A DNA stretch of 64,000 nucleotides from Arthrobacter cheniae. Lineage in GTDB: Bacteria; Actinomycetota; Actinomycetes; Actinomycetales; Micrococcaceae. The DNA is taken from contig NZ_QZVT01000004.1 in assembly GCF_003602275.1 (NCBI RefSeq), positions 240,463-304,462 of the forward strand, given 5' to 3'. The notes beneath the pieces are model-generated. The model was not told where the DNA came from. It worked only from the letters and a program-made list of their open reading frames with translations, and searched no databases. The stretch's first letter is position 1. Each line of letters begins with the position of its first letter. This document shows positions 3,666 through 57,181 of this stretch, in pieces. Position numbers and translations under genes: made by a program.

Positions 3666-4295
3666 TCAGCGTGCCAGGACCACCGGTCGACTCCCGGGCG
3701 GACCGGGAAGGAGGAATGCGGAGATGGCTGCCGCGATCTTCCTGCCGCCCTGCACGGAGGGCTCGATGGGGTTGGCGTAGTCGCCGTCGTCATCACACAC
3801 GAGGCGCAGGTCGACGACGGACACGTCGCGCGCGAACGCAGCCCGCGTGATGCAGTCATTGAAGAAGGCGAGCGCCGTGCGGACCACGGCGTAGCCCGGT
3901 TCCGAGGCGGGGGTGTCGTAGATGGTGCAGACGGCGACGGGTAGACCCCGCGCGGTGACCCCGTCGAGCATCGATCCGTAGGCGCGACCAACGTCGCGCT
4001 GGACGTCGTGGAAGGCGAGGAGCGCCTCGGGCACGCTGTCCACCGGCCGTTGCAACAGGTGGCGGTATCCCAGGGCATCGTTCCCTCCGACGCTGACCAC
4101 GAGGTGGGTGGCGTCGGGCGGCACGGACCGCAGTTGCCGGGCGACGCCACCGATGACATCGCCGTCGACGGCCAACAGGGTGGCTCTCCAATCCTCCGAC
4201 AGGGCGTCGCGGACCTGCGCGACGACGTCGGGGCCACCGTCCACGTACCGTCCATTGTCGAAGATCGAATCTCCGAGCAGCACCACATGCCCCAT
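3666..4295 (-). CDS. SGNH/GDSL-type hydrolase
   Basis: Probable esterase/lipase-like hydrolase of the SGNH superfamily, 209 residues. Block I is LLGDSIFDNG right at the N-terminus (nucleophile Ser) and block III is VVSVGGND (oxyanion Asn). The usual block V DxxH is replaced near the C-terminus by YANPIEPS, so the standard catalytic His is not visible; this version seems typical of a subgroup rather than a random mutation, but that is inference. The start at 4295 is fixed by an AGGAGG four bases upstream of the ATG, making the longer reading to 4403 unlikely. No signal peptide is seen, suggesting a cytoplasmic enzyme. Substrate unknown. Confidence 0.85.
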   Translation of the reverse strand: MGHVVLLGDSIFDNGRYVDGGPDVVAQVRDALSEDWRATLLAVDGDVIGGVARQLRSVPPDATHLVVSVGGNDALGYRHLLQRPVDSVPEALLAFHDVQRDVGRAYGSMLDGVTARGLPVAVCTIYDTPASEPGYAVVRTALAFFNDCITRAAFARDVSVVDLRLVCDDDGDYANPIEPSVQGGRKIAAAISAFLLPGPPGSRPVVLAR

Positions 4296-44629: not shown

Positions 44630-45259
44630 ATGAAAAATCCTTCAGCGCGCATGCGCAAAATCGCTATGCTCGGTGCCGCTCCTCTTGCTGTGCTCGTTGC
44701 CGGGGGGATGGTCTGGCAGGGCTCGCAGGCTGCATTCACCGCTTCTACGCGCAATGCCGGTAACTCCTGGAGCACCGGAAATGTCGTCCTGAACGATGAT
44801 GACCTCGGAGCTGCCGCGTTCACCGTAGAGAACATCGTTCCAGGGCAGTCCGGCGAGAAGTGCATTGTGGTCACCTCCCAGTCGAACGTCGCCGGGGAAG
44901 TGCGGGCCTATACCCAGAACCTGATCCCCTCGCGCGGCATGGAGGACAGGATCTTCATCGACCTGGAGCAAGGCACCGGCGGCTCCTTCGCCGACTGCAC
45001 CGACTTCATCCCAGCGGCCGAGAACACCGTACCGGAGCTACCGCTGTCGACCCTTGCAACGGTCAACAGTGACTTCGCGACGGGCGGTTCCGCCTGGCAG
45101 ACCGCCGGCACCCCCGGAGAGACTCAGAGTTACCGGGCCACCTGGCGCTTTGAAACCGGCGACATGAGCCAGGACGCGATCAACGCCCTGCAGGGCGCGC
45201 GGACCGGCATCGATCTCGTCTGGGAGCTCCAGTCAGACGACTCCCCAACTGCCCCGTAA
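44630..45259 (+). CDS. SipW-type signal peptide protein (TasA-like surface protein)
   Basis: Exported protein of 209 residues with the special signal peptide recognised by SipW-type signal peptidases: basic start, hydrophobic core LGAAPLAVLVAGGMVW and the cleavage region GSQAAFTASTRNAGNSWSTGN. The mature part resembles TasA/CalY-type matrix proteins in being a beta-rich domain with one Cys pair (Cys in EKCIVV and FADCTDF). It is followed at 27 bases by the SipW-fusion gene, its likely processing peptidase. A role in a surface or biofilm matrix is inferred. Confidence 0.82.
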   Translation: MKNPSARMRKIAMLGAAPLAVLVAGGMVWQGSQAAFTASTRNAGNSWSTGNVVLNDDDLGAAAFTVENIVPGQSGEKCIVVTSQSNVAGEVRAYTQNLIPSRGMEDRIFIDLEQGTGGSFADCTDFIPAAENTVPELPLSTLATVNSDFATGGSAWQTAGTPGETQSYRATWRFETGDMSQDAINALQGARTGIDLVWELQSDDSPTAP

Positions 45260-45286: not shown

Positions 45287-47749
45287 GTGAACCGGGAGGA
45301 ACCCGGGCACGTCCCGGTGTCCTCCCGGTTCGGCTTGGTGTTTTCCGCTGACGGGTGGGTGTCCTTCGTGGCGTCCGCCCTGTCGCGCCTATATCTGGGT
45401 GTGGTGCTCAGCCTTGCCCTGATCGCGATCCTGCCCCTTCTGCTGCCGTCGCTGAATTTGCACGGCACGGTTGTCCAAAGCGGGTCGATGGAACCACACA
45501 TCAGTGCTGGCGACGTCGTTCTCGCCGCTCCCCTGGAACCCCGAACGCCCGCCCCCGTCGGCGGAGTGGTGGAGTACACCAGTCCTGCCTTCGCGGAGCC
45601 CAGTGGAGTGGACAAAACCCGGCTCCATAGAATCGTCGCCGAGAATACGGATGGCACCTTCGTCACCGCCGGCGATGCGAACGCCGACGTGGACAGCACG
45701 CCGCTGACCCTCGAGCAGATCACGGGACAGGCACGGCTTCTGGTTCCGATGATCGGTCTGCCCGGATTGTGGCTGAACATCAGGGATTATTCGTCGCTTG
45801 CATGGTGGTCCGCGTTGACTCTCCTCGCCATCGTCATGGCCCTCTTCGGCGGTCCGCGCAGTGATCCCCACGATAAAGATGCTGATGAGGAGGATCCTGC
45901 AGGCAGTGACGGAGTTGCTCCATCCGGCGTCGCGGGCTTCACGGTCAGGGTTGGTGCGGCCGTAGGAATGATTGCAGTGATACTGGCTCTCGTCGTCGCC
46001 AGTGGCATCATGTCATCGACCGCCGCCTTCACAGCCACCACCGTAAATTCCCCGAATACGTTCGGTGCAGCTGCTGACTGGACCCCGCCGTCCGTCACCA
46101 TGGTCAGCCCCGGCCCATCAGTGCAGGCCACCACGGCCCTCGCCGCTGAAGCTTCCGACACCGAAACCGCCATCAGCAACATCACAATCGAGTACCAGGC
46201 AGACGGAGGCACCACGTGGACAGCCGTGTGCACGGTGACCACCGCTCCCTACGCTTGCGATTGGAACACCCTAAGCGTGCCGGACGGCTCGTATAGTCTG
46301 CGCGCCACCGCCACCAGCACCATCGGCCTCAGCGCCACCTCCGCCGAGGTGCACACCACGGTATCCAACACCTTCATGGTCACCCTTGCAGACCCCGGCG
46401 AAATTCAGCGCGGCACAGTCGTTCTAGCCGCGACCCTCTCCGGCTCAGGCTCACGCAGCTACTCGGTACGCACGGAATACTCCCTGGCCGGAAGCAACCG
46501 GTGGAGCGCTCTGTGCACGACCGTCGCCGCACCCTATAACTGCGCCTGGAACACTGGCGGTCTTACCAACGACTACTACGACTTGCGCGCCGTCGCCGTA
46601 TCGGGAAGCACGACGACCTACTCGGAAACCATCACTGATGTCCTGGTCGACAATCTGGCGCCCGTCGTCACCCTGAGCGACTCCGGTACGCCATTGAGTG
46701 GAACCAGAACTTTCACAGCAACCGCGACCGATGCTCATTCCGGTATCGCCCAGGTCCAGATGCAGTACAACCGAACAGGCACACCCACCTGGACAACCAT
46801 GTGCACCATCGATACGGCGCCGTTCTCGTGCCGGTTCGACACGACGACCCTGACCGCCGGCGCCTACAATTTCCGTGCTATCGCCACCGACGCTGCAGGT
46901 ACCAGTACAACCTCAGCCGTCGTGTCGAATCGAACGGTGGACAACACCATTGCCTCCGTGTCGGTAGAAGACCCCGGCGCCTACCTGACCGGAATAGCAA
47001 GACTTACGGCATCGGCGAACTCCACCGCCGGAATCCGGCAAGTACGTATCCAATCCGCGCCCACGGGAACCACCGCCTGGACCACGCGCTGCATCCCCAC
47101 CGTCACCCCGTACAGCTGTGACTGGGACACCAAGAGCGTCCCCGACGGTCTCTATGACCTGCGCGCGGTCCTCACGGACAACACCGGACGGGAGACCCTG
47201 TCGGCGACCGTCAGCGCCCGCAGGGTAGATAACAGTCCGCTACGCGGTGCCGACATCCAGACAACCAACGGTCCCGGGACACCAGGAGCACTGGGAGCCG
47301 GCGACTCCATGACGTTCACCTACAGCCAGCAGGTCAACACCGCCACTGTTGTCTCCGGATGGACCGGAGCCGCGCTGCCCGTGACCGTTCGCTTGCGGGA
47401 CGGGAACCTGCTCGGTCTCGGCAACATCGGGGACACCGTCGACATCCAGCGTTCCGGCACCACTGTCACCCTCGGCACGGTCAATCTCATGCAGAACTAC
47501 GTCAGGAACCGTAAGACTGCCACCTTCATCGCGACGATGACAGCCACCACTGTGACTACCAACGGAGTTCCACGAACGGTCATCACGGTGGCACTCGGCG
47601 CCGCCACCAACGGACCTGGCAATCTCCGCACCACGATCACCCCATCGACCATGATCTGGAACCCCACCACCGCAGTCGCCAGCACCACCGGCACCCCCAG
47701 TTCCAGCGCCCCGGTCACCGAAACAGGCCCCCTCGACAGAGACTTCTGA
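45287..47749 (+). CDS. SipW-like signal peptidase I fused to Ig-like repeat array with its own SipW-type signal
   Basis: An 820-residue two-part protein. Residues 1-190 form an ER/SipW-type signal peptidase: membrane helix about 38-56, catalytic Ser67 in SGSMEP, His114 in TRLHRIV, the acidic GDANADVD at 129-136 and a second helix about 170-188. After a charged linker (190-215), a third hydrophobic segment (about 218-241) ends in a SipW-dependent signal pattern STAAFTATTVNSPNTFG (244-260). The rest carries four Ig-like repeats of about 95 residues, each with a Cys pair spaced about 8 apart (e.g. AVCTVTTAPYACDW), then a C-terminal beta domain. It thus looks like a protease joined to its substrate. 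GTG start at 45287; AGGAG eleven bases upstream. Confidence 0.85.
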   Translation: MNREEPGHVPVSSRFGLVFSADGWVSFVASALSRLYLGVVLSLALIAILPLLLPSLNLHGTVVQSGSMEPHISAGDVVLAAPLEPRTPAPVGGVVEYTSPAFAEPSGVDKTRLHRIVAENTDGTFVTAGDANADVDSTPLTLEQITGQARLLVPMIGLPGLWLNIRDYSSLAWWSALTLLAIVMALFGGPRSDPHDKDADEEDPAGSDGVAPSGVAGFTVRVGAAVGMIAVILALVVASGIMSSTAAFTATTVNSPNTFGAAADWTPPSVTMVSPGPSVQATTALAAEASDTETAISNITIEYQADGGTTWTAVCTVTTAPYACDWNTLSVPDGSYSLRATATSTIGLSATSAEVHTTVSNTFMVTLADPGEIQRGTVVLAATLSGSGSRSYSVRTEYSLAGSNRWSALCTTVAAPYNCAWNTGGLTNDYYDLRAVAVSGSTTTYSETITDVLVDNLAPVVTLSDSGTPLSGTRTFTATATDAHSGIAQVQMQYNRTGTPTWTTMCTIDTAPFSCRFDTTTLTAGAYNFRAIATDAAGTSTTSAVVSNRTVDNTIASVSVEDPGAYLTGIARLTASANSTAGIRQVRIQSAPTGTTAWTTRCIPTVTPYSCDWDTKSVPDGLYDLRAVLTDNTGRETLSATVSARRVDNSPLRGADIQTTNGPGTPGALGAGDSMTFTYSQQVNTATVVSGWTGAALPVTVRLRDGNLLGLGNIGDTVDIQRSGTTVTLGTVNLMQNYVRNRKTATFIATMTATTVTTNGVPRTVITVALGAATNGPGNLRTTITPSTMIWNPTTAVASTTGTPSSSAPVTETGPLDRDF

Positions 47750-50351: not shown

Positions 50352-51851
50352 ATGACGATTTCCACCTCGACCACCACGGACGACGCCGACCTCACCGCCC
50401 TCGGGTATGAGCCCTCCCTGCACCGCAAGCTGGGCCGCTATGCATCCTTCGCAGCCGGTTTCTCCTTCGTCTCGATCCTGACGACCATCTTCCAGCTCTT
50501 CGCCTTCGGGTATTCGTTCGCCGGCCCGGCGTTCTTCTGGACCTGGCCCATCGTCCTCGTCGGCCAGCTCCTCGTGGCCCTCAACTTCGCCGAACTGGCC
50601 GCACGGTATCCGCTCTCCGGGGCCGTCTACCAGTGGGCGCGGCGCGTGGGCGGCGAGACGGTGGGCTGGTTCGCCGGGTGGTTCATGGCAGTGGCGCAGG
50701 TGGTCACCGCGGCTGCGGCGGCCATCGCACTCCAGGTCGTCCTGCCGCAGCTGTGGAGCGGGTTCCAGGTGGTCGGGGGTGATCCCGCCCTCAACACCGT
50801 CACCGGTGCCGCGAACGCCGTCGTCCTCGGTGCCATCCTCCTCGTCGCCACCACCGTGATCAACGTGATGGGTGTGCGGCTCATGAGCCACGTCAACTCC
50901 ATCGGCGTGACCTGCGAGATCGTCGGCGTCATCGCCGTCGTCCTCGCACTCATCACCGCAGCGCAGCGCGGGCCCGACGTCGTGATGGACACCACGGTGC
51001 TGCAGGGCTCGGATCTCGGTGCCGTGGGAGCATTCCTCGTCTCGGGCCTCATGGCGGCGTACGTCATGGTCGGGTTCAACTCCGCCGGCGAACTGTCAGA
51101 AGAAACCAGGGACCCGCGGCGCACGGCACCCCGCACCATCATCTCCGCGCTCGTGATCTCCGGTATCGGCGGGGCCCTGATGATCATCACTGCCCTGATG
51201 GCAGCGCCGAGCCTCGACGACGGCCGGCTCGCCACCGAGGGCCTCCCCTACGTCCTGACCGCCGTCCTCGGCACGTTCTGGGGCAAGGTCCTGCTGGTCG
51301 ACGTCGCCATCGCCATCTTCGTCTGCACCCTCGCCATCCAGACCGCCGGCTCGCGCCTGGTCTTCTCGATGGCACGCGACGGGAAGCTGCCGGCCTCGGC
51401 ACTGCTCTCCACCGTCCACCCCCGCCGCGGCACCCCGATGTGGCCGTCCATCGTCATCGGGGCCCTCGCGGTCGGCGTCCTGGCGATCAACGTCGGAAAC
51501 GCCGCGCTCTTCACCACGCTGACGAGTGTCTGCATCGTCATGGTGTACATCGCCTACCTGCTGGTCACCGTTCCGCAACTGGTCAACCGGCTGCGCGGCG
51601 ACTGGGACCGCGTGGGACAGACCATGCCGTCCGGCCTCTTCTCCCTCGGCCGCTGGGGCCTGCCCGTGAATGTGCTCGCCGTCCTCTACGGCGCCGTCAT
51701 GGTCATCAACCTCGCCTGGCCACGTCCCGAGGTGTACGACCCCGCCGGCGAGAACGGGATCCTCCTCTACTCCGCTCCGCTCATGGTCACCATCGTGCTG
51801 CTCCTGGGACTCTGGATCCGCCGGAGCATCGCAGCCAGGGCCTCCTCGTAA
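50352..51851 (+). CDS. APC family permease of guanidine/urea carboxylase cluster
   Basis: Amino-acid/polyamine/organocation transporter of 499 residues with about twelve membrane helices. FAAGFSFVSILTTIFQLFAFGYSFAGP and the following LVALNFAELAARYPLSGAVYQWARR are the usual first helices, and the SEETRDPRRTAPRTI loop is typical. Such permeases sit at the head of urea/guanidine carboxylase operons and presumably import the substrate. First gene of the five-gene operon. Confidence 0.92.
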   Translation: MTISTSTTTDDADLTALGYEPSLHRKLGRYASFAAGFSFVSILTTIFQLFAFGYSFAGPAFFWTWPIVLVGQLLVALNFAELAARYPLSGAVYQWARRVGGETVGWFAGWFMAVAQVVTAAAAAIALQVVLPQLWSGFQVVGGDPALNTVTGAANAVVLGAILLVATTVINVMGVRLMSHVNSIGVTCEIVGVIAVVLALITAAQRGPDVVMDTTVLQGSDLGAVGAFLVSGLMAAYVMVGFNSAGELSEETRDPRRTAPRTIISALVISGIGGALMIITALMAAPSLDDGRLATEGLPYVLTAVLGTFWGKVLLVDVAIAIFVCTLAIQTAGSRLVFSMARDGKLPASALLSTVHPRRGTPMWPSIVIGALAVGVLAINVGNAALFTTLTSVCIVMVYIAYLLVTVPQLVNRLRGDWDRVGQTMPSGLFSLGRWGLPVNVLAVLYGAVMVINLAWPRPEVYDPAGENGILLYSAPLMVTIVLLLGLWIRRSIAARASS

Positions 51852-51897
51852 TCCGCTCGCAAGCATCACCTGCTCCCCCAGCCCTGATAGGAAGAAC

Positions 51898-52773
51898 ATG
51901 ACCCAGACCACCGACACCCCGGCGGGCACGGCCACCACGGCCGGAGCCCGGGCCCACGCCCGTGACCAGCACAGCCGCACGGCGGACACCATGCGCCACG
52001 TGCCGGTGTCCACAGCACCCTCCCGGGTCACGGGCACACTGCCCGACGGTGCCGCCGACCGCCTGGTCTGGTCCGAGACACTGGCCTTCGGCCGCTACAC
52101 GACCATGCACCTCGCCCGGGGCACCCGCGTCCGGCTCACCGACACGGGTGACGCCTGCGTGCACACCCTCCTGTACCGGGCCGGCGCACTCCACGAACGC
52201 TTCAATGCCGCCGACACCGTCAAGGTGCCGTGGCAGGCCTACCCAGGGACAGGGCACCCCCTCCTGTCCGACGCCGGACGCGTCCTCGCAACGATCGTCG
52301 AGGACACCTCGGTCCACCACGACGCCCTCACCGGCGCCACCACCCTGGCCGGGAACACGGCCAAATACGGAGCAGGCACGGCCCACAGCGCCTCGCCCGC
52401 CGCACGCGAACTACTGACCCTCGGGGCGCTGAAGAACGGCCTCGGGCCGCGGGACGTCGCGCCGTCACTGACCCTCTTCAAGGGCATCCGGGTGCACGAC
52501 GACGGCAGCATCCGCTTTTCGGGAAGCACCGGCACGGAAACCCATGTGGATCTGCTGCTGCAGCTGGACACCGTCGTCGTCCTGGCCAACACCGCCCACC
52601 CCCTCGACCCGCGGACCGACTTCACCGGCACCGCCGTCGAGCTCGCCGCCTGGCGTGCCCCTGAGGACCTCACCGCGCTGGCGGACGGAAGCCTGGTGGG
52701 ACCACTGGCTCCCGAACACCTGCAGGCACTGAACAACACCGAACATGATCTCGCCGCAAGGAGCACCCGATGA
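51898..52773 (+). CDS. DUF1989 urea carboxylase-associated protein, carboxyguanidine deiminase subunit type
   Basis: Protein of 291 residues of the larger DUF1989 type (UAAP). It includes WSETLAFGRYTTMHLARGTRVRLTD and the Asn/Cys-containing GDACVHTLLYRAGALHERFNAADTVKV. Pairs of such proteins (CgdA/CgdB) are now known to deiminate carboxyguanidine to allophanate. Its stop overlaps the next start as ATGA. AGGAAG precedes the ATG. Confidence 0.85.
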   Translation: MTQTTDTPAGTATTAGARAHARDQHSRTADTMRHVPVSTAPSRVTGTLPDGAADRLVWSETLAFGRYTTMHLARGTRVRLTDTGDACVHTLLYRAGALHERFNAADTVKVPWQAYPGTGHPLLSDAGRVLATIVEDTSVHHDALTGATTLAGNTAKYGAGTAHSASPAARELLTLGALKNGLGPRDVAPSLTLFKGIRVHDDGSIRFSGSTGTETHVDLLLQLDTVVVLANTAHPLDPRTDFTGTAVELAAWRAPEDLTALADGSLVGPLAPEHLQALNNTEHDLAARSTR

Positions 52774-53435
52774 CCACGATCCTCTCGCAGCCGGCGAGCA
52801 GCACGGCGCTCGTGCCCGGCGCCGTCGTCCTCGACGAGTACGTCGAAGCACGCGGGCCCTGGTCCGCCGTCGTCGTCGCCGGCGATGTCCTCACCATCGT
52901 GGACCTCGACGGAAACCAGGCCGTCGACTGCCTGCTCTACGCCGCCGGCGACACCACCGTCCGGTACTCCGCCGCCGTCACCATCGCCCAGCAGCGCTCC
53001 ATCGTCCTCACCACCGGTTCCGTGCTCCGCGCCGAGACGGGTCTCCCCCTCATGACCGTCGTCGCCGACGAGGTAGGCGTGCACGACACCATCGGCGGCG
53101 CCTGCTCCCAGGAATCGAACACCCTCCGGTACGGCCAGCACACGCGCGAGCAGCATGCGTGCGTGGAGAACTTCCTCATCGAAGGGTCCCGCTGGGGACT
53201 CGGCAAGCGGGACCTCGTCCCCAACATCAACTGGTTCATGAATGTGCCGGTGGACCCCGACGGCGCCCTCGGGATAGTCGACGGCCTCTCCGCTCCCGGC
53301 AAGCGGGTGGCACTTCGGGCCGAGGTGGACACCCTCGTGCTCGTCTCGAACTGCCCGCAGGTCAACAACCCGTGCAACGGCTTCGACCCCACTCCCGTCC
53401 GCATGATCGTCACCCACCCGGAGGATGCCGCATGA
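52770..53435 (+). CDS. DUF1989 urea carboxylase-associated protein, second subunit
   Basis: Protein of 221 residues of the smaller DUF1989 type. Motifs are GDVLTIVDLDGNQAVDCLLYAAGD, CSQESNTLRYG, and NCPQVNNPCNGFDPTPVR; the Cys and His residues probably bind metal. It pairs with the preceding gene, forming a likely carboxyguanidine deiminase. ATGA overlaps join it to both neighbours, so production is tightly coupled with the carboxylase. Confidence 0.88.
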   Translation: MTTILSQPASSTALVPGAVVLDEYVEARGPWSAVVVAGDVLTIVDLDGNQAVDCLLYAAGDTTVRYSAAVTIAQQRSIVLTTGSVLRAETGLPLMTVVADEVGVHDTIGGACSQESNTLRYGQHTREQHACVENFLIEGSRWGLGKRDLVPNINWFMNVPVDPDGALGIVDGLSAPGKRVALRAEVDTLVLVSNCPQVNNPCNGFDPTPVRMIVTHPEDAA

Positions 53436-56400
53436 ACCGTTTCGACACCCTGCTCGTGGCCAACCGCGGGGAGATCGCCTGCCGCATTATCGAATCCGCC
53501 CGGAAACTCGGGCTGCGCACGGTCGCCGTGTTCTCCGAGGCGGACCGCGGTGCACGCCACGTCCAACTGGCCGACGAGGCCGTCCTCCTCGGGCCGGCCC
53601 CCGCCAAGGAGTCCTACCTGCGGATCGACGCCCTGCTAACCGCTGCCGCGTCCACCGGCGCCGGCGCGATCCACCCCGGCTACGGGTTCCTGTCCGAGGA
53701 TGCCGGCTTCGCGGAGGCCGTCGAGGCGGCCGGACTCGTCTTCGTGGGCCCCACACCGGATCAGCTCCGCATCTTCGGCACGAAGCACACGGCGCGTGAC
53801 GCCGCCTCCGCCGCAGGCGTCCCCATGATCGCCGGGTCCGGCCTGCTCGACGGCGTGGAGGAGGCCCTTGCTGCCGGGGCATCGATCGGTTACCCACTGA
53901 TGCTCAAGGCGACCGGCGGTGGAGGCGGCATCGGTATGACGGTGTGCCACACGGAGGAGGAGCTCGCGGACAGCTTCCCCAGAGTGGCCCGCCTCGCCGG
54001 AGCAAGCTTCGGCACCGCGGGCGTGTTCGCGGAGCGGTACGTGGAGAACGCCCGTCATGTGGAGGTGCAGGTCTTTGGTGACGGAGAGGGCCGGGTCGTC
54101 AGCCTCGGTGACCGCGACTGCTCCCTGCAGCGACGACACCAGAAGGTGCTCGAGGAGGCGCCCGCCCCCGACCTGCCGGACGAGCTACGCGAGGAACTGC
54201 ACCGCAGCTCACGCGCGCTCTGCGCCTCACTCGGCTACCGCTCGGCCGGGACCGTGGAATTCGTCTACGACCCCGTCCGCCGGGAGGCATCCTTCCTCGA
54301 GGTGAATGCACGCCTGCAGGTCGAACACCCCGTGACGGAATCGGTGACCGGCGTCGACCTCGTCGAGTGGATGCTCCGCCTCGCGCAGGGCGGGCCCGAC
54401 GCCGAGGCCGTCCTCGCCGGCGTCCCCGACAGCGTCCCGGTGTCCGGCCACGCCGTCGAGGCCCGGGTGTACGCGGAAGATCCCGCCCGGGGATTCCAGC
54501 CCAGTGCTGGCACCATCACCAACGCCGCCTACCCCGAGGCGGACCACGTCCGCGTGGACACCTGGGCCGAGACCGGCAGCGAGGTCTCCACGAACTACGA
54601 TCCCCTGCTGGCCAAGATCATCACCTCCGGCAGCAGCCGCGACGAGGCCTTCGACCGGCTGGCCGTCGCCCTGACCGGCACGCGGATCGACGGCATCGAG
54701 ACCAACCTCGGCATGCTCCGCGCCGTCAGCACCCTCGACGTCGTCCGGGCGGCTGCCCATTCGACCAGCACGCTCGACGCCGTGGGCGACCCCGAACCGC
54801 GCATCACCGTGGAGCGCCCCGGCCTGCAGACCAGCGTGCAGGACTGGCCGGGCCGCACCGGTCTGTGGCAGGTGGGCGTCCCTCCGAGCGGTCCCATGGA
54901 CGACCTCTCCTTCCGCCTCGGCAACCAGGCCCTCGGCAACCCGGAGGGTGCCCCCGGCCTCGAATTCACCATGACCGGACCCGCCCTGACCTTCTCGCAC
55001 GACACCACCGTGTGCGTGACGGGTGCGGCGGTAAGCGTCACGGTCGACGGCGCGGAGGTGCCGGCCTGGGAACAAATCACGGTGCCGGCGGGCGGAACGC
55101 TCGACGTCGGCACGGCGGAGGGAGCGGGCCTGCGCGGCTACGTCCTGTTCGCTGGCGGCCTCGACATCCCCCTGCACCTCGGCAGCGCGTCCACCTTCAC
55201 CCTCGGCCAGTTCGGCGGGCACGCGGGGCGCGTCCTACGGACCGGTGACGTGCTGAGGACCGTGCAGGCGGACGTGCCCGTGACGGCATCCCACGTGCGG
55301 GAATCACGCGTGCCGCTCGACGCCCGGCCTGTCCTGACCTCCCACTGGGAGCTCACTGTCCTCGAAGGCCCGCACGGTGCACCGGAGTTCTTCCAGCGCG
55401 AAGACATCGACGAGCTCTTCGCAACGGACTACGAGGTTCACTTCAACTCCGCTCGGACCGGCGTCAGGCTCATCGGGCCGAAACCCCGCTGGGCACGGAA
55501 CGACGGCGGCGAGGCCGGCCTCCACCCGTCCAACATCCACGACACCCCCTATTCGGTCGGTGCCCTGGACTTCACCGGTGACACTCCCATCCTCCTCGGA
55601 CCGGACGGCCCCAGTCTCGGCGGCTTCGTGTGCCCGGTGACCGTCGTGACGGCCGACCGCTGGAAGCTCGGACAGCTCCGCCCAGGCGACACCGTACGCT
55701 TCGTCCCGGTCAAGGCCGCGCAGGCACCTTCGCTGCGGGACCTCGGTCCGGGCCGGCAGCTGATCCTGCCGGACGCCCCGGAGCCGGGCGCCGGTCCCTC
55801 CCCCCTGCGCAGGCACCTCCTCAGGGGCGGAGACCTCGACGACGGCGTGCTCGCGCGGGTCGCGGAGGAACCCGGCCGGCCGGCAGTGACCTACCGTCGA
55901 TCCGGCGACGACAACCTGCTCGTCGAGTACGGCGACATGGTGCTCGACCTCGGCCTCCGGGCCCGGGTGCATGCCCTTCACCAGTCCATCGAGCAGATGC
56001 GGCTCACCGGCGTGGTGGACCTGACGCCCGGGATCCGCAGCCTGCAGATCAAGGTGGATCCGACCGTCCTGTCCACCCGCCGCATGCTGCAGGTGGTGCA
56101 GGACATCGAAAGCTCCCTGCCGGCCAGTTCCGAACTCGTGGTGCCCAGCCGTACGGTGCGCCTGCCCCTGTCCTGGGACGACCCGGCGACCCGTGAGGCG
56201 ATCGAGCGGTACATGGCCGGCGTGCGCGACGACGCCCCGTGGTGCCCGTGGAACATCGAGTTCATCCGGCGCGTGAACGGGCTGGGCTCGGTCAACGACG
56301 TCTTCGACACCGTGTTCGACGCCGAATACCTGGTGCTCGGTCTGGGCGACGTGTACCTCGGGGCGCCCGTCGCAACACCGCTGGACCCGCGGCACCGCCT

Positions 56401-57181
56401 CGTCACCACCAAGTACAACCCCGCAAGGACCTGGACGCCGGAGAACGCGGTCGGGATCGGCGGTGCCTACATGTGCATCTACGGGATGGAAGGACCCGGC
56501 GGCTACCAGTTCGTGGGCCGCACCACCCAGGTCTGGTCGCGCTACGCCGATTCCGCACCCTTCGAACCGGGCTCCCCGTGGCTGCTGCGGTTCTTCGACC
56601 GCATCTCCTGGTACCCGGTCAGCCCGGAGGAACTGCTGGACCTGCGCGCCGACATGGCCGCCGGCCGGGGTCGCGGAGTCGAGATCGAGGAGGGCACCTT
56701 CTCCCTCGCCGAGCACGAGCGCTTCCTGGCGGACAACAGCGAATCCATTGCGGAGTTCCGGGTGCAGCAGTCCGCCGCCTTCGCCGTCGAACGCAAGGCA
56801 TGGGCCGACGCCGGCGAGTTCGACCGCGCCGACGCCGCCGCGGCCATTATTCCCGAGCCGGAGGAGCTGGTGGTGCCCGACGGCGCCTCCCTCGTCTCCG
56901 CGCCGTTCGCCGCCAGCGTCTGGAAGGTGGACGTTGCGCCGGGCGACACGGTGCTGAAGGGACAGCCCCTCGTCTCGCTCGAAGCCATGAAGATGGAGAC
57001 CGTCCTCAGCGCTCCCTGCGACGGCCTGGTGCTGCAGGTCCTGCCCCTCGCAGGGTCGCAGGTCGTGGCCGGCGAGGCACTGGTGGTCCTGGGCTCATCC
57101 CCGGACACGTCGCCCGATCCGGGACAGGCACCACGACAGCAGGAACCCGAGGCACGCGCAACAGAAGAGGTAGCAGCATGA
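53432..57181 (+). CDS. Guanidine/urea carboxylase (biotin-dependent)
   Basis: Multidomain enzyme of 1249 residues. Residues about 1-450 form biotin carboxylase (LVANRGEIACRII, KATGGGGGIGM, FLEVNARLQVEHPVTE). About 460-1165 hold the carboxyltransferase, made of two allophanate-hydrolase-subunit-like (KipA-type then KipI-type) domains. A biotin domain follows with EAMKMET (Lys1187), then a 30-residue tail. It carboxylates urea or, given the adjacent DUF1989 pair, more probably guanidine, to feed allophanate hydrolase. ATG at 53432 overlaps the previous stop; a longer reading to 52745 is a shadow. Specificity depends on one Asp/Asn position not checked here. Confidence 0.9.
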   Translation: MNRFDTLLVANRGEIACRIIESARKLGLRTVAVFSEADRGARHVQLADEAVLLGPAPAKESYLRIDALLTAAASTGAGAIHPGYGFLSEDAGFAEAVEAAGLVFVGPTPDQLRIFGTKHTARDAASAAGVPMIAGSGLLDGVEEALAAGASIGYPLMLKATGGGGGIGMTVCHTEEELADSFPRVARLAGASFGTAGVFAERYVENARHVEVQVFGDGEGRVVSLGDRDCSLQRRHQKVLEEAPAPDLPDELREELHRSSRALCASLGYRSAGTVEFVYDPVRREASFLEVNARLQVEHPVTESVTGVDLVEWMLRLAQGGPDAEAVLAGVPDSVPVSGHAVEARVYAEDPARGFQPSAGTITNAAYPEADHVRVDTWAETGSEVSTNYDPLLAKIITSGSSRDEAFDRLAVALTGTRIDGIETNLGMLRAVSTLDVVRAAAHSTSTLDAVGDPEPRITVERPGLQTSVQDWPGRTGLWQVGVPPSGPMDDLSFRLGNQALGNPEGAPGLEFTMTGPALTFSHDTTVCVTGAAVSVTVDGAEVPAWEQITVPAGGTLDVGTAEGAGLRGYVLFAGGLDIPLHLGSASTFTLGQFGGHAGRVLRTGDVLRTVQADVPVTASHVRESRVPLDARPVLTSHWELTVLEGPHGAPEFFQREDIDELFATDYEVHFNSARTGVRLIGPKPRWARNDGGEAGLHPSNIHDTPYSVGALDFTGDTPILLGPDGPSLGGFVCPVTVVTADRWKLGQLRPGDTVRFVPVKAAQAPSLRDLGPGRQLILPDAPEPGAGPSPLRRHLLRGGDLDDGVLARVAEEPGRPAVTYRRSGDDNLLVEYGDMVLDLGLRARVHALHQSIEQMRLTGVVDLTPGIRSLQIKVDPTVLSTRRMLQVVQDIESSLPASSELVVPSRTVRLPLSWDDPATREAIERYMAGVRDDAPWCPWNIEFIRRVNGLGSVNDVFDTVFDAEYLVLGLGDVYLGAPVATPLDPRHRLVTTKYNPARTWTPENAVGIGGAYMCIYGMEGPGGYQFVGRTTQVWSRYADSAPFEPGSPWLLRFFDRISWYPVSPEELLDLRADMAAGRGRGVEIEEGTFSLAEHERFLADNSESIAEFRVQQSAAFAVERKAWADAGEFDRADAAAAIIPEPEELVVPDGASLVSAPFAASVWKVDVAPGDTVLKGQPLVSLEAMKMETVLSAPCDGLVLQVLPLAGSQVVAGEALVVLGSSPDTSPDPGQAPRQQEPEARATEEVAA

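Follow-up and report, generated by a model that had tools for sequence, protein, structure and literature searches.

How a signal peptidase works when a single polypeptide holds both the enzyme and an exported protein with a signal peptide of its own is the question raised by a gene of Arthrobacter cheniae. The usual substrates of signal peptidases are other proteins, cut in trans, and self-cutting is known for some purified ones. In the stretch of 64,000 nucleotides analysed here (contig NZ_QZVT01000004.1; hereafter the window), the gene at 45287..47749 joins a SipW-type peptidase head to a third hydrophobic segment with a cleavage-type site and to an array of immunoglobulin (Ig)-like repeats, and lies 27 bp downstream of a gene for a TasA-like protein. 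Here we describe, from sequence analysis, this architecture, its invariant catalytic residues, the exchange of its cargo among relatives and an N-terminal tag that the cargo shares with the TasA-like partner. We consider it probable (roughly 0.7) that the enzyme releases both its own cargo and the TasA-like subunit, and that the cargo may join a TasA-like fibre.

A SipW-type signal peptidase and an exported cargo in one gene

The locus comprises the following elements, with residues of the fusion protein in brackets (ER, endoplasmic reticulum; AF2, AlphaFold2; Pn and Pn′, residues before and after the presumed cut).

44630..45259, + strand: TasA-like exported protein, 209 aa, with a SipW-type signal peptide ending QGSQA before AFTASTRNAGNSW
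45287..47749, + strand: fusion gene, 820 aa, GTG start, single open frame; ER/SipW-type signal peptidase, internal signal and Ig array
45347..45442, + strand: membrane helix 1 (21–52); AF2 model and hydropathy
45458..45760, + strand: Peptidase S26B domain (about 58–158); TIGR02228 match, SEC11 profile match and Foldseek
45485..45487, + strand: presumed catalytic Ser67 (SGSMEP), invariant in 26/26
45626..45628, + strand: presumed catalytic His114 (LHR), invariant in 26/26
45671..45694, + strand: acid motif GDANADVD (129–136), Asp130 and Asp136 invariant in 26/26
45788..45847, + strand: membrane helix 2 (168–187); AF2 model
45848..45928, + strand: charged linker, presumed cytoplasmic (188–214), of varying length and weak constraint
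45929..46009, + strand: internal signal segment, or membrane helix 3 (215–241); hydropathy and AF2; equivalent to the N-terminal signal peptide of stand-alone Ig homologues
46022..46027, + strand: predicted cleavage site between A246 (P1) and A247 (P1′), with Phe248 at P2′; aligned sites and analogy with the P2′ Phe of TasA
46025..46063, + strand: mature N-terminal tag (247–259) with Phe248 and Phe259; resembles the tag of the TasA-like partner
46082..47206, + strand: four Big_7 Ig-like repeats with paired Cys (about 266–640, outer limits approximate); Pfam
47207..47746, + strand: conserved C-terminal domain (641–820) of about 180 residues, ending LDRDF, without a Pfam family

Sequence profiles and predicted fold identify the head as an ER/SipW-type (S26B) signal peptidase, for which removal of signal peptides is predicted. 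TIGR02228, the model for archaeal/ER-type signal peptidase I, matches residues 60–158 with an expect value (E) of 5.4e-12 and 45.9 bits, just under its curated cut-off of 51.85; of five fused relatives (loci are given as L numbers), four score above that mark (L105, 56.4; L132, 63.5; L135, 56.7; L072, 59.7) and L108 below it (46.5). The equivalog model for Bacillus SipW, NF046067, gave 2.3e-6 and 27.3 bits, far below its cut-off of 190 bits, so that the head is classed as SipW-type, with SipW proper excluded. Pfam, searched up to E 10, returned no S26 match for the window protein. A profile built from the N-terminal part of 26 aligned fusions (rows) found human SEC11C (2e-12) and SEC11A (3e-12) in the PDB, with three SEC11 sequences in all (2e-12 to 4e-11) and nothing else up to E 1. 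The structure prediction that an earlier, sequence-only reading of this DNA had proposed pointed the same way: Foldseek ranked SEC11 first and second (E 3e-5, template modelling (TM) score by target 0.55) and Streptococcus SipA (4n31) third and fourth for the AF2 model, which has a mean predicted local distance difference test (pLDDT) score of 71, falling below 50 from residue 242 on, and three helices (21–52, 168–187 and 215–241). The catalytic signature noted in that reading, Ser67, His114 and GDANADVD, is present, and Ser67, His114, Asp130 and Asp136 are invariant in all 26 rows, the window included.

The four Cys-containing Ig-like repeats of the same reading are likewise recovered, as Pfam Big_7 (5.6e-20; four stretches when matches up to E 10 are admitted) with a Cys pair in each repeat by sequence reading. 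Behind them lies the conserved domain 641–820, which that reading had not mentioned; it is also present in the separately encoded Ig proteins described below, and its comparison with the PDB and Pfam gave no match of weight. A separate Ig product from an internal start is unlikely: in the stretch read, in-frame ATG or GTG codons fall at residue 184 (helix 2) and at 228 and 231 (inside the third segment), with none just ahead of the segment.

A database search for the same domain order established the fusion as a real architecture. In named genomes, an alignment query yielded 29 loci (a single query with the whole window protein confirmed none), comprising 28 actinobacterial loci and one unfused locus from Oscillospiraceae. 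Fused relatives occur in 13 named genera (Arthrobacter, Paeniglutamicibacter, Pseudarthrobacter, Paenarthrobacter, Kocuria, Zafaria, Labedella, Planctomonas, Lacisediminihabitans, Cellulosimicrobium, Cellulomonas, Nocardioides and Glycomyces) and in metagenome-assembled genomes, with close full-length relatives both within Arthrobacter and in other genera of its family. Strong profile matches that run through the internal signal (reaching position 256 or further, at E 3e-38 or better) came from 15 places in 14 of 197 sampled genomes of the family. The architecture is therefore widespread, yet present in a minority of genomes; among the other places in the matches listed, one (G063) extends to position 256 or beyond. 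Arthrobacter alpinus A3 and Arthrobacter sp. TMP15 each carry the fusion on a closed plasmid, as a single coding sequence annotated ‘Ig-like domain-containing protein’ and preceded by a ‘hypothetical protein’ in the TasA-like position; the fusion architecture explains why at least two such proteins are annotated by their cargo alone. The plasmid copies L160–L162 enter none of our counts; L160 and L162 come from Arthrobacter of glacier permafrost and a meltwater pond, and a separate ice-binding protein is encoded downstream of the L162 fusion.

Both halves of the fusion are under purifying selection, as judged from the ratio of non-synonymous to synonymous substitution rates (dN/dS) in six pairs: 0.05–0.19 for the peptidase and 0.07–0.25 for the cargo, with some dS values near saturation. 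The linker is looser than both halves (0.37–0.59 in the three pairs where it was computable). Two genes joined by a sequencing error, which the sequence-only reading had named as a way for its proposal to fail, are ruled out because fused homologues exist in many genera and on closed plasmids. An artefact of gene calling or assembly, or a decayed chance fusion, finds some support in the five of 28 actinobacterial loci that are damaged or short: L087 (Br18) reads in two frames, L095 has one Ig repeat, L097 (A. echini) has no cargo, L100 is a degraded Kocuria rosea copy and L102 has a short cargo. Against such an origin stand the intact single open reading frames in many species and on the two closed plasmids, together with dN/dS well below 1 in both halves, and we regard it as extremely improbable.

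The internal signal and its exchangeable cargo

By sequence, the internal third segment has the marks of a signal peptide. In the window protein, its hydrophobic stretch (residues ~224–243) is followed by STAAFTATTVNSPNTFG, and the junction ahead of the Ig repeats consists of segment 215–241, then SSTA and, past the presumed cut, AFTATTVNSPNTF. Near the end of the third hydrophobic segment, the motif A-x-[FWY]-[TSVHFN] is present in 41 of 44 fused or truncated rows, the window included, against 5.5 expected from cargo composition; by a looser pattern, the site is found in 0 of 25 unfused rows, which is partly so by definition. As the motif set the alignment positions, the P1 Ala and the P2′ aromatic residue are counted by construction, which does not apply to P3, P6′ and the second aromatic residue. 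The site table holds 43 of the 44 rows (without L141_2_1198; L104 and L097 were placed by hand), and its counts are not independent, because many Ig rows are close relatives. P3 is A, S, T, V, L or G (small or aliphatic) in 43/43 aligned sites, whereas P2 is bulky or charged in 14 and P4 in 27. Such restriction at P3 with freedom at P2 and P4 corresponds to the −3/−1 rule of cut signal peptides, which an uncut anchor would not need.

At the four stand-alone Ig loci examined (L048, L064, L065 and L066), the Ig protein is encoded by a gene of its own and starts with the third segment as an N-terminal signal peptide. Genes run in the order TasA-like, S26B, Ig at 4/4 of these loci, with the S26B gene of L065 reading in two frames; the first gene of L048 matches the TasA model at 2.2e-7 and 30.6 of 450 bits, far below the cut-off. 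The second signal-like segment with a SipW-type pattern, which the sequence-only reading had singled out, is thus borne out by the recurrence of the site and by the split homologues. In a tree of the Ig part, the 13 fused copies form one group (91/87) and, with midpoint rooting, the split copies fall outside it, consistent with a single fusion event behind the Ig type.

Behind a similar head, third segment and site, Pfam identifies quite different cargos: Big_7; Ice_binding (L056, L104, L107 and L109); Laminin_G_3 (L051, L110, L111 and L136); CBM_2 (L112); weakly CBM_5_12 (L139 and L141); and Glyco_hydro_26 in Pseudarthrobacter BIM B-2242. The head of L135 carries a TasA-like domain as cargo (profile E 1.1e-11). 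The cargos of L105, L108, L072, L076 and L084 gave no Pfam match of weight. Our CBM2 label has Pfam support for L112 only, and CBM5 falls below the Pfam cut-off; the labels Fn3-like and Iglike and the TasA label of L141_2_1198 were assigned by sequence reading, without a Pfam cargo match, and the L141_2_1198 cargo has no match to the TasA-like profile. That similar heads precede such different cargos suggests that the enzyme releases its own cargo. The plasmid-borne fusion of the peptidase with a glycoside hydrolase family 26 (GH26) glycosidase (L161, 4001–5572) has its annotated start at a Met just after the catalytic Ser, and tblastn places the beginning of the match further upstream, at 4001.

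A tree of 69 peptidase domains contains a branch of 32 rows (93/80, marginally below the mark for firm support), all of them fused or truncated copies, with four types of cargo. L141_2_1198 groups apart with the three Fn3-like fusions (100/99), and the CBM5/LamG set makes up a third branch (98/91). The fused or unfused state requires 5 changes on this tree and the cargo label 11, truncated rows left out. The tree is unrooted, and fused copies are favoured in it because rows were chosen for their similarity to the window; it omits duplicate loci of the same genomes (L046, L049, L050, L052, L053, L055–L057 and L059–L062), the degraded Kocuria rosea copy (L058/L100), L080 (spurious), L081 (other architecture), L138 (a near copy of L137) and the peptidases of L064–L066. 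The L048 peptidase is placed well away from the fused branch, although its own branch is long and its placement unsure. The Fn3-like branch (L072, L076 and L084) comprises S26B fusions with small, Fn3-like-looking cargos, in which the AAF site is present and the second aromatic residue missing.

By eye, a twin-arginine motif resembling that of twin-arginine translocation (Tat) signals (such as TRRAFF, TRRTFL and SRRSAL) stands ahead of the third segment in 9 of 10 ice-binding fusions (L096, L098, L099, L101–L104, L106 and L107) and in the LamG fusion L051. In the Ig type, RR (SRRWK) occurs in 2/15, with hydrophobic residues at the usual following places in 0/15. The motif hints at a peptidase inserted by the general secretory (Sec) route with a Tat-exported cargo.

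The TasA-like partner and the shared N-terminal tag

The assignment of the protein at 44630–45259 as TasA-like, made in the sequence-only reading, is supported by its AF2 model (mean pLDDT 79.5), whose three best PDB matches are TasA (5of2 and 5of1; E 4.3e-4 to 7.5e-4, TM-score by target 0.43–0.51). The protein has no sequence family match, Pfam M73 and NCBIfam TasA included, and a PDB sequence search with it gave nothing useful. Among the TasA-like rows, 5/22 have a weak M73 match (best E 0.005) and 1/22 a match to the TasA model (0.033). A TasA-like homologue, whole or in part, accompanies 27 of the 28 actinobacterial loci, the exception being A. echini. The fusion is not the only SipW-type peptidase of its genome: a family search found a second, unfused one between two TasA-like open reading frames (L153, 3564–6432), which the sequence-only reading did not include.

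The mature N-terminus of the TasA-like proteins follows the pattern A-A-F-T-x-x-T-x-N-x-x-N-x-[FW], and cargos of unrelated fold follow it loosely. In 38 of 43 cargos, where 5.9 would be expected, P2′ is followed at a distance of 10 or 11 residues by a second aromatic residue (Ig 15/15, Ice 10/10, LamG 5/6, Iglike 2/2, CBM2 2/2, CBM5 2/2, TasA-like 1/1, Fn3-like 0/3, truncated 1/2). Over P3′–P14′, the TasA-like protein and the cargo of the same locus have a mean identity of 0.378 (30 loci), against 0.089 for random cargo windows; in this table, the TasA-like site of L107 was mis-picked and those of L063 and L112 were not picked. Excerpts of PMC9674648 place the donor strand of Bacillus subtilis TasA at residues 28–38, with hydrophobic contacts by Phe29, Ile32 and Phe39. 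The N-terminus of TapA resembles this strand and is thought to supply the first one, and a strain secreting only TapA 44–57 formed a proper biofilm (excerpts of PMC9674648 and PMC10151520). A signal peptidase would not be expected to read 13 residues past its cut, and we therefore take the shared tag as a likely fibre-insertion strand. At L133 (3487–4410), a peptidase with 17 residues after the site, little but a tag lacking the second aromatic residue, lies between two TasA-like genes; no cargo was recognised in other frames of this one draft genome.

Further downstream in the window (50352–57181), an amino-acid permease-like protein is followed by open reading frames that resemble what we take to be an ordinary urea carboxylase cluster.

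Proposed self-release and its alternatives

In the mechanism that we favour, a cytoplasmic linker would connect a SipW-type (Ser-His-Asp) peptidase to a secreted Ig-array protein, whose own SipW-type signal peptide would be retained as the third segment in the membrane. The head and this segment would place the Ig array outside, so that the Ig part is exported; the fused peptidase would then cut between A246 and A247, in cis or in a neighbouring copy, and release a 574-residue cargo. The same active site would trim the TasA-like protein made just upstream. With a strand like the N-terminus of the TasA-like subunit, the released cargo may serve as the start, cap or decoration of a TasA-like fibre, in the manner of TapA in Bacillus. 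The −3/−1 pattern, the P2′ Phe, the split-gene homologues and the exchange of cargo together suggest both self-processing and processing of the neighbour, and are compatible alike with cutting in cis and in trans. An adhesive role of the Ig array is a guess.

Further support comes from excerpts of PMC10269814, which report an aromatic P2′ residue in 0 of 143 verified Escherichia coli LepB substrates and leave TasA, with its P2′ Phe, to SipW in B. subtilis. Several observations weigh against this mechanism. The same excerpts attribute the poor cutting of TasA by LepB largely to a Trp in position P2, where the window protein carries Thr, so that LepB may cut here as well. The P2′ Phe may have been kept as a fibre anchor instead of a cleavage mark, and the unfused SipW-type peptidase of the same genome could cut either site. 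L141_2_1198 looks fused and has no site, and the second aromatic residue is missing from the three Fn3-like fusions, LamG L136 and L133. Tag identity between different loci (0.358) is barely below that within a locus, and the identity within a locus exceeds the 99th percentile of random windows at just 17 of 30 loci; no per-locus co-evolution of tag and TasA-like N-terminus was seen across the 30 loci.

The third segment might instead be a permanent anchor, in which case the Ig array would remain tethered beside the peptidase, perhaps as the membrane base of a TasA-like fibre, and the peptidase would serve the TasA-like protein alone. We think this unlikely: the three-helix AF2 topology and the near-constant TasA-like gene would suit an anchor, and strand insertion by itself could explain why Phe248 and Phe259 are kept, but the restriction at P3 is that of cut signal peptides, and stand-alone homologues bear the segment as an ordinary N-terminal signal peptide. 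Slightly less probable again is cutting of the cargo by another enzyme, unfused SipW-type or LepB-type, with the fused head acting mainly on the TasA-like protein. The genome does encode the second SipW-type peptidase and LepB-type ones, and the P2 Trp reported in the excerpted account to block LepB in TasA is missing here; however, that account has no aromatic P2′ residue among its LepB substrates, peptidase and cargo stay joined in a single gene, each half under purifying selection, and the fusion recurs with many cargos.

Self-release by the fused peptidase would extend known systems. As in B. subtilis tapA–sipW–tasA, an ER-type signal peptidase stands beside a TasA-fold subunit with Phe at P2′; here, a single polypeptide unites the peptidase with the second substrate, and the order is tasA-like and then the fusion. 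TapA, in excerpts of PMC10151520 and PMC9674648, is a minor SipW substrate with an N-terminus like the TasA donor strand, whereas the cargo described here varies from an Ig array to unrelated binding or enzyme domains, tentatively likened to TapA by its signal and N-terminal pattern. The head shares the Ser-His-Asp residues, the fold and the profile match of ER/archaeal-type signal peptidase I (S26B; SEC11, SipW and TIGR02228), and adds to them a further membrane segment, the third, which bears a cleavage-type site, and an exported cargo at the C-terminus. The three-gene loci (L048, L064, L065 and L066) have the same Ig array, C-terminal domain and kinds of partner, but encode peptidase and Ig protein separately. 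Streptococcus pyogenes SipA (4n31) likewise combines a signal-peptidase fold with proximity to a surface-fibre system; the part of the literature consulted describes it as a separate signal-peptidase-like protein needed for pilus polymerisation and makes no mention of a fusion. The components are therefore known; the fusion, the exchange of cargo and the sharing of the tag look new. In keeping with the sequence-only reading, which knew of no description of the fusion, we found no account of one among the papers listed from the open-licence PubMed Central literature, judged mostly by title or the start of the abstract, which is weak evidence of absence.

More broadly, and tentatively, at a little short of even odds, the fusions may form a modular self-loading system in Actinobacteria, in which an exchangeable cargo (Ig array, ice-binding, lectin-like, carbohydrate-binding or glycosidase domain) follows one SipW-type head by way of a cleavable signal and a donor-strand tag. 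The head would cut itself free of the cargo, so that the cargo is released together with the TasA-like subunits, which the cargo then caps or decorates. A recurrent natural fusion of peptidase and substrate offers a one-protein test of cutting in cis, and it may provide a built-in link between the release of a fibre subunit and a functional tip or decoration. If this is true, donor-strand fibres bearing ice-binding, lectin, cellulose-binding or glycosidase domains would be predicted in Arthrobacter and its relatives.

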